A stretch of DNA of 38,881 nt from an uncultured bacterium. GTDB lineage: Bacteria > Bipolaricaulota > Bipolaricaulia > Bipolaricaulales > Bipolaricaulaceae. A program made the position numbers and the translations under genes. Under the pieces are notes generated by a model. The model ran no database searches. It had not been told where the DNA came from and saw nothing but the letters and a program-made list of their open reading frames with translations. Below, piece after piece: positions 36,690 to 38,881 of this stretch. Position 1 is the first letter of the stretch. The number at the start of each line of letters is the position of its first letter. The DNA lies in assembly GCA_937122485.1 (NCBI GenBank), contig CAKZKH010000123.1, positions 1 through 38,881 of the forward strand, written 5' to 3'.

Positions 36690-37637
36690 CTAGGATTTGA
36701 GTCCCTTATTATACTCGTCCGCTGCGAGGGCGGCCAAGGCGCCTTCGGCCGCGGCCACCACGGCCTGGGCCCTCCGCACCTCCGGATCGCGCAGGTCCCC
36801 GGCAGCGAACACCCCCGGTTGGCTTGTGCGCATCATCCCGTCCGTAACCACGTACCCCTTGTCCGTGAGGTCCACTATCCCCCGCAGCCAGTCCGTGTTC
36901 GGTTTGTACCCGATCTTGACGAAGATCCCCTCCACGGGAAGGTCCCTCAGCTCTCCTGTACCCAGGTCCTGGAGAAGAACGCCCCGCACAGCTTGATCCC
37001 CCCGCACTTCGTGCACCACAGCGTTCCACACCACCTCCACGTGCGGGTCGGCCAGGACCTTCTCCTTGAGCGTTGCCGCGGCCCGCAGGGCTTTGGGGTC
37101 TTCCTGGGGATGGCGCACGACCAGGTACACCCTGCGGGCAATCTTGGAAAGGAACAGGGCCTCGGTTAGGGCGCTGTTGCCGCCTCCCACAACGACGACG
37201 TCTTTGCCCTTGTAGAAGTAGCCGTCGCACACGGCGCAGTAGGAGATGCCACGACCGGCGAACTCCCTGGCCCCGGGCACTTCCAGCTCCTTGTAGTGAG
37301 CTCCCGTGCAGAGGACCACCGTTCTGCCCACCACCGGGCCCATCGAAGTGTCCACGAGCCAAGAGCCTTGGGGGGAGGAGAGGCTACGGGCCTCGCCCAA
37401 GACGAACTGGGCGCCCAGCCGCTCGGCCTGGGTCTGCATCCGTTCGGCGAGCTCCGCCCCGGAAATCGGTTCCGGAAACCCCGGGAAGTTCTCGATCAAG
37501 GGGGTTTCCAAAATCTGCCCTCCCGGCAAGGCCCTTTCTAGGACCAGGGTGTCCAACCCGGCCCGCCGGGCGTAGATGGCGGCAGTGAGCCCGGCCGGCC
37601 CTGCTCCCACAATCACCACGTCCCAAACCCGCTCCAT
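36690..37637 (-). CDS. trxB: Thioredoxin reductase-like flavoprotein without the NADPH motif
   Basis: A 315-residue flavoprotein with FAD motif GAGPAG (11-16), the redox-active pair C134/C137 in YCAVCDG, a second nucleotide motif GGGNSA (151-156), and the C-terminal FAD motif FAAGDLRDPEVRRAQAVVAAAEG. These define the low-molecular-weight thioredoxin reductase family. The NADPH-recognition motif HRRxxxR is replaced by VRHPQEDPK (174-182), so NADPH use is doubtful; NADH or another electron donor is possible. ATG 37637 is set by the family N-terminus. A -10-like TAGAAT lies just upstream. Confidence 0.9.
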   Translation of the reverse strand: MERVWDVVIVGAGPAGLTAAIYARRAGLDTLVLERALPGGQILETPLIENFPGFPEPISGAELAERMQTQAERLGAQFVLGEARSLSSPQGSWLVDTSMGPVVGRTVVLCTGAHYKELEVPGAREFAGRGISYCAVCDGYFYKGKDVVVVGGGNSALTEALFLSKIARRVYLVVRHPQEDPKALRAAATLKEKVLADPHVEVVWNAVVHEVRGDQAVRGVLLQDLGTGELRDLPVEGIFVKIGYKPNTDWLRGIVDLTDKGYVVTDGMMRTSQPGVFAAGDLRDPEVRRAQAVVAAAEGALAALAADEYNKGLKS

Positions 37638-37669: not shown

Positions 37670-37676
37670 AAGTTTG

Positions 37677-38881
37677 ATGCGCGAAGTGACCCGCAACGGG
37701 GACTTCTTGATCATCCGGTTTGACTACGACCCGGCACTTGTGGAGCGGGTCAAGGGTCTCCCGGGCCGGCGCTGGGACCCGGAAAACCGTCAGTGGATTG
37801 TACCGGCGGTCTTTGCTCCAGCCGTGGTCCACCTCCTTAGGCCCGAGGGGTTCCTGTTTGGGGAGGGAATCCAGCAGCTAGCGAACGCTCAGGGTGAAGA
37901 GGCACGGGATCACCTGAAAGTGTCCGAGCTCAACCAGCGGGTCCAGGCGGCCCTGAAGCGGGAGTTTCCCGAGCCGGTCTGGGTCGTGGGAGAGATCCTG
38001 GGGTACGGGAAGAGCCTAGGCAAGAACAAGTCCTACGTGGATTTTCAGCTCGTGGAGCGCCTGGAGGGCCGGATTGTGGCCGCAGCGGAGGCCGTTCTTT
38101 TCCGGGAAGAACGGGGGAAGATCGAAGAGAAACTCCACGAGGCGGGAGATCCCTACGCCCTGCAGGACGAGCTTATGGTGCGGGTGCTGGCCCAGGTGGA
38201 CCTCCAGACCCAGTGGGGTCGATACCGCCTGGTCATCCGCGACTTGGACGTCCACTACACCCTGGGGGAAGCGGCCCGACGCAAAGAGGAGATCTTGCGC
38301 AAATTGGCCAAGGAAGGCCTTCTTGAGCTCAACAAGGCCCTGCCGTTCCCGTTGGTGCCCCTGCGGGTGGGGGTCATCACCAGCCTCGGATCGGATGCTG
38401 AACGGGATGTGCTGCGGACGTTGGCGGAGTCGGGCTTCGCCTTCCAGGTGGTCGTGCACGGGGCCCGGGTCCAGGGCCACTACACCGAGCCCTCGATCCT
38501 CAACGCTCTGGACTGGTTCCGCCAAAGGATCGCGGACTTTGACGTGCTTGTGATTTGCCGGGGCGGGGGCTCCCGGGCCGATCTGGCCTGGTTCGATTCT
38601 GAGGTGCTGGGGAGGGCGGTGGCCACCTTCCCCCTGCCCGTGGTGGTCGGCATTGGCCACGAAGAGGACCGGAGTGTCTTGGACGAGGTAGGTTGGCGGC
38701 AAAAAACCCCCACCGCCGCGGCCCAGTTCCTGGTGGCTCGGGTTCAGGAAACGCTCGACCGCCTAGAGAAGAACCTGGTGCAGGTGGTGCAAGAAGCCCA
38801 GGCAGCGGTGGATCGGGCAGGGCAGGGCCACAGGGAGCGGGTGGGCCGCTTCCTCAGGGCGGCGCAAAACGCCGTCAAGAG
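37677..38881 (+). CDS. xseA: Exonuclease VII large subunit with HARP-like N-terminal extension, partial at the right edge
   Basis: At least 401 codons are present and the gene continues past the window. Residues 1 to about 60 (FDYDPALVERVKGLPGRRWDPENRQWIVP) resemble the HARP repeat of SMARCAL1-type helicases and are not part of standard XseA. From about residue 80 the OB-fold domain begins (LKVSELNQRVQAALKREF, VWVVGEILG). The catalytic domain follows with VGVITS, CRGGGSRADLAWFDSEVL, VGIGHEEDRSVLD and KTPTAAAQF. The product would be the catalytic subunit of single-stranded-DNA exonuclease VII, normally paired with XseB (not in the window). The start is inferred from a promoter seven bases upstream. 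Confidence 0.92.
   Translation, partial: MREVTRNGDFLIIRFDYDPALVERVKGLPGRRWDPENRQWIVPAVFAPAVVHLLRPEGFLFGEGIQQLANAQGEEARDHLKVSELNQRVQAALKREFPEPVWVVGEILGYGKSLGKNKSYVDFQLVERLEGRIVAAAEAVLFREERGKIEEKLHEAGDPYALQDELMVRVLAQVDLQTQWGRYRLVIRDLDVHYTLGEAARRKEEILRKLAKEGLLELNKALPFPLVPLRVGVITSLGSDAERDVLRTLAESGFAFQVVVHGARVQGHYTEPSILNALDWFRQRIADFDVLVICRGGGSRADLAWFDSEVLGRAVATFPLPVVVGIGHEEDRSVLDEVGWRQKTPTAAAQFLVARVQETLDRLEKNLVQVVQEAQAAVDRAGQGHRERVGRFLRAAQNAVK

Follow-up and report, generated by a model that had tools for sequence, protein, structure and literature searches.

We found that the exonuclease VII large subunit (XseA) of the bacterial family Bipolaricaulaceae carries, ahead of its OB-fold, a 79-residue extension that is, by profile comparison and predicted fold, a domain of the HARP/DRD type. 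In fork-remodelling helicases, HARP domains are the parts that recognise branched DNA. We propose that the module in XseA grips duplex DNA or a branch and would thereby load exonuclease VII (ExoVII) on branched DNA. We give this reading, which rests on analogy with other carriers of the domain, a probability of roughly 0.6.

A conserved extension ahead of the XseA OB-fold

The window (the whole stretch of DNA analysed, 38,881 nucleotides) is the entire contig C123. It comes from a draft genome of 1.54 Mb that, among named relatives, is closest to metagenome assemblies of Acetothermia/Bipolaricaulota. Its last gene is xseA, the sole Exonuc_VII_L gene detected in the source genome. The frame opens at an ATG at 37677, directly preceded by a TTG at 37674, and is free of stops up to the contig end, which cuts the protein at 401 amino acids. 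The features are as follows.

36690..37637, minus strand: trxB-like gene, divergent neighbour, outside the fusion (open frame and locus comparison)
37677..37913, plus strand: HARP-like extension (79 aa) at the XseA N-terminus, with beta-beta-alpha-beta-beta-alpha and a final helix predicted (HMM, family profile, structure prediction)
37713..37796, plus strand: stretch of the extension (residues 13-40) aligned to positions 3-30 of Pfam HARP, PF07443 (HMM)
37914..38246, plus strand: OB-fold (PF13742), residues 80-190 (Pfam model)
38319..38825, plus strand: exonuclease VII catalytic domain, residues 215-383, positions 1-169 of 315 of PF02601, the remainder lying past the contig end (Pfam model)
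38406..38408, plus strand: presumed catalytic Asp, D244, opposite the Asp of E. coli 'LHDIL' (8txr alignment)
38559..38561, plus strand: presumed catalytic Arg, R295, within CRGGG (8txr alignment)
38658..38669, plus strand: presumed catalytic H328 and D331, within GHEED (8txr alignment; in the 8txr chain Ala replaces the His)

Read from its sequence, the product is an exonuclease VII large subunit whose XseA start, behind the 79-residue extension, is otherwise normal. The NCBIfam model for xseA (TIGR00237) scored 223.4 bits although the protein is truncated, above the curated cut-off of 180 bits, and begins at residue 81. E. coli XseA (8txr) is alignable only from residue 82 onward. That alignment retains the Asp, Arg, His and Asp (D244, R295, H328 and D331) that we take from general knowledge to be catalytic. 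The sequence-only reading had put about 75 residues (37677-37900) ahead of the OB-fold; we measured 79 (37677-37913), with the OB-fold model starting at residue 80. The motif that it had quoted from this region, FDYDPALVERVKGLPGRRWDPENRQWIVP, is residues 15-43 (37719-37805).

The E. coli enzyme (8txr; TIGR00237) and the Bipolaricaulaceae form have in common the OB-fold, the catalytic domain and the D/R/H/D residues, and xseB lies directly downstream of xseA in the relatives checked. The Bipolaricaulaceae form differs in adding the HARP-like domain. No xseB was detected in the source genome, whose contig stops inside xseA, and no helicase domain (e.g., an SNF2 ATPase) was found in the window's XseA as far as the contig reaches. 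HARP-like XseA is a variant of a known enzyme and no new kind of system.

The extension is conserved in the family. We built a profile (A1) from 23 related loci aligned across the whole extension. Searches with this profile found the extension in frame and free of stops in 33 of 40 Bipolaricaulaceae genomes, spanning 10 genera. This is 33 of the 35 family genomes with a detectable XseA; of the seven genomes lacking the extension, the two of genus g6 carry an ordinary XseA, and in the other five no XseA was detectable. In close pairs, dN/dS of the extension was below 1 (about 0.07-0.45), comparable to or somewhat above that of the OB-fold. Sequence change has been faster in the extension than in the core (53% vs 82% mean identity between pairs of the aligned loci). 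Trp40 is nonetheless invariant, positions 26 and 38 are Lys or Arg in 23/23 loci, and Arg31 is present in 20. The window's copy differs from the family consensus at R24, G62 and A69. The divergent trxB-like/xseA pair is also kept in most of the fusion loci. Because the extension is open across 33 genomes, has a dN/dS below 1 in close pairs and lies in a locus that keeps trxB in most cases and xseB in the relatives checked, the fusion is, on this comparative sequence evidence, a vertically kept arrangement and not a one-off assembly join. One orthologue (L016, genome G003) has a much longer coiled-coil region and reaches 622 aa from the start of the extension, compared with about 540-560 aa in the others.

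Relation of the extension to HARP and XPB domains

Pfam HARP (PF07443) was the only family that matched the window's extension (E 0.0064-0.0075, 16.5 bits). Of the 23 orthologues it also matched 22 (20.8 bits and E 2.3e-4 at best), and all of these scores, including the window's, are below the gathering cut-off of 25 bits. The HARP-like SNF2 proteins of bacteria and phage that we tested likewise score under this cut-off. Run over whole genomes, the HARP model gave a single match in each of 18 family genomes, and that match was always the xseA extension. The sequence-only reading had called the extension HARP-like; the HMM search bears out the kinship, with HARP matching nearly all members, and stops short of formal Pfam membership. 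We therefore call the extension HARP-like and do not list it as a member of PF07443.

Searched against the PDB, A1 had one match at E<1, the HARP domain of SMARCAL1, a fork-remodelling enzyme of animals (4o66; E 1.5e-4, 24.6 bits). Chance matches of A1, to TsaC-like proteins, reach ~17-22 bits, close enough to this score that the 4o66 match is insufficient alone. Four matches of A1 in a sister family (G064, G026, G034 and G063) were to proteins that look by sequence to be of TsaC/YrdC type and were counted as chance. Two other models were compared. XPB_DRD matched weakly in 3 of 23 members. DUF5710 (PF18974) matched just 4 of 23 (best E 0.019, its cut-off of 26.5 bits unmet) and gave no match to the window's own extension; we dropped it as a better label for the extension on these scores.

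The predicted structure points to the same group of domains. The model of the extension (pLDDT 86) has the order beta-beta-alpha-beta-beta-alpha-alpha. Structure prediction was a check proposed by the sequence-only reading; the top nine Foldseek rows for this model were N-terminal domains of archaeal XPB and the crystal structure of SMARCAL1 HARP, 4o66, at E-values of only ~0.004-0.04. With VIA-align, the best structural match was the damage-recognition domain (DRD) of XPB (2fz4, 2fwr; Z 6.6, 1.7 A over 55 residues), and 4o66 gave Z 4.2 (2.2 A over 50 residues); these are modest scores for a predicted model. The XPB domain has just 9% sequence identity to the extension, and its carrier is a helicase, although in archaea XPB works together with a nuclease, Bax1 (PMC7672443). 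Structural rows at Z 5-6 for CASTOR1, eIF1 and similar proteins were rejected as homology.

We found the same module on other proteins. A tblastn search of all phages with one family member returned 11 records, some of them named helicase or HepA-related. With A1 we screened 2.9 million viral contigs (IMG/VR) and obtained 15 loci; in 14 of these the domain, in one or two copies, stands immediately before an SNF2-type helicase. The helicase was assigned by sequence in the IMG/VR loci, whereas Pfam was used for the examples from phages and plasmids. A profile of the domains borne by SNF2 helicases aligned with A1 over 69 columns (hhalign 99.5%, E 3.4e-23). This position, ahead of an SNF2 helicase, is the usual place of HARP, and it gives independent support for the HARP relation. 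The XseA extension is thus like SMARCAL1 HARP (PF07443, 4o66) and the bacterial and viral SNF2 HARP domains in profile, predicted fold, size and N-terminal position. It differs from them in that its carrier is a nuclease, not a helicase, and in its scores under the Pfam cut-off.

Two further contexts were observed. In several other lineages, tyrosine-recombinase-like proteins have a HARP-like N-terminal domain before their SAM-like and catalytic domains (loci L121, L122, L123, L124, L127, L129, L130, L131, L132 and L133; three were checked by Pfam). We found no paper joining a HARP domain with an integrase in the open-access literature searched. On a viral contig, a protein of at most 314 aa (L108:2233-3174), with no visible helicase domain, has a HARP-like C-terminal end and is a further non-helicase context of the module.

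Spread of the fusion and lineage of the XseA core

The sequence-only reading had proposed a survey of other XseA proteins for the extension, and we found it to be family-wide in Bipolaricaulaceae and did not detect it on other XseAs in the genomes searched. XseA was detected in 303 of 389 genomes (E up to 1e-20), 289 of the 389 being from outside the phylum. The listed matches that reach the conserved part of the extension all come from the 33 family members. Elsewhere in these genomes, A1 matched SNF2 helicases, XPB/UvsW-like helicases and tyrosine recombinases, and no other XseA.

When a tree was built from XseA cores, all fusion proteins fell into a single clade, grouped with XseAs of Bacteroidota and plasmids (100/100) and apart from those of the sister families and of genus g6. 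Branches in this tree are long, and the exact neighbour of the fusion clade is unsure. The core of the fusion protein is thus of the Bacteroidota/plasmid lineage and not of the sister-family lineage, and this topology suggests that the ancestor of most Bipolaricaulaceae acquired a foreign-type XseA. The two g6 loci (L024 and L025; genomes G015 and G005) encode an ordinary, extension-free XseA like that of the sister families, which implies that one XseA lineage was replaced by another inside the family. No relatives of the XseA core were found in the viral contigs.

Plasmid XseAs of Polaromonas and Variovorax, which belong to the same broad lineage, have an N-terminal DUF5710 domain at the position that the HARP-like domain takes in Bipolaricaulaceae. 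DUF5710 on these proteins (L137:2989-4719, L138:3016-4749 and L139:2941-4269) scores far above its own cut-off (E 8e-17 to 9e-19). This small domain contains an 'aRWD...W.VP' motif, and its link to the HARP-like module consists of a short common motif, 'RWD...W.VP' (hhalign 69%, 25 aligned columns).

Proposed function of the module

Several published observations bear on what the module might do. HARP domains fused to other SNF2 proteins give annealing-helicase activity (PMC4035279). Alongside HIRAN, OB and winged-helix domains, HARP is named as a domain by which enzymes of fork reversal bind DNA junctions specifically, and T4 UvsW has a HARP domain (PMC4666394). ExoVII degrades single strands from either end, 3' or 5', and in E. 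coli it acts on flaps (PMC6393302). From this literature on HARP and ExoVII we consider it likely that the module would dock at a duplex or branch point and pass the adjoining single-stranded DNA on to the OB-fold and active site.

The sequence-only reading had suggested that the fusion would direct ExoVII to particular DNA structures. In the mechanism that we propose along these lines, the module would grip duplex DNA or a branch point between single-stranded and double-stranded DNA, and the OB-fold and catalytic core would receive the adjoining single-stranded tail. ExoVII would in this way be brought to gaps, flaps and forks that have stalled or reversed, or be kept beside the branch, and might depend less on meeting free ends by diffusion. 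A broader possibility, which we hold only tentatively, is that the ExoVII lineage gained an N-terminal DNA-reading module more than once (HARP-like in Bipolaricaulaceae, DUF5710 on proteobacterial plasmids), turning a non-specific single-strand nuclease into a branch-loaded one; HARP/DRD may then be a portable addressing unit of helicases, recombinases and a nuclease.

The combination of a HARP-like domain with XseA seems to be undescribed. We found no paper naming both 'HARP domain' and 'exonuclease VII', and none on Bipolaricaulota and an exonuclease, in the open-access literature searched. With a natural, conserved fusion to a nuclease, it should be simple to ask if a HARP-type module is enough by itself to give structure specificity. 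It might help to explain the poorly understood choice of ExoVII substrates in cells, and it is a concrete oddity among the repair proteins of a phylum known almost solely from metagenomes.

Other explanations of the extension were weighed against loading at branches. ExoVII is a multi-subunit particle, and extra domains could act in its assembly. The module might therefore have kept the HARP fold, lost the ability to find DNA structures, and come to contact XseB, the coiled coil of XseA or another protein, controlling assembly of the particle. The faster evolution of the extension relative to the core would fit such a role, as would the uncertain placement of the module relative to the core in a predicted full-length model of an orthologue (pTM 0.49). 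However, the aromatic and basic positions (Trp40 and the basic residues at 26, 31 and 38) stay conserved, and the module's other carriers, the helicases and tyrosine recombinases, act on DNA. We consider a role in assembly unlikely. The module could instead be a general anchor that raises processivity by holding single- or double-stranded DNA, without favouring branches, and DUF5710, at the same position on the plasmid XseAs and with a short motif in common, would be a parallel solution. Any added DNA contact may benefit a nuclease. However, in sequence and fold the module is nearer to HARP/DRD, described as junction-specific in the literature, than to DUF5710, and we regard a general anchor as quite improbable.

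It could also be argued that the extension is an artefact of the annotated start, with translation beginning past it, for example at an in-frame GTG at 37920, and that XseA is ordinary. A start at 37920 would fall inside the OB-fold model. The extension itself matches known HARP domains and is predicted to fold confidently. Its open frame and similarity across the 33 genomes, together with its dN/dS, contradict an artefact of this kind, which we consider extremely improbable and have rejected.
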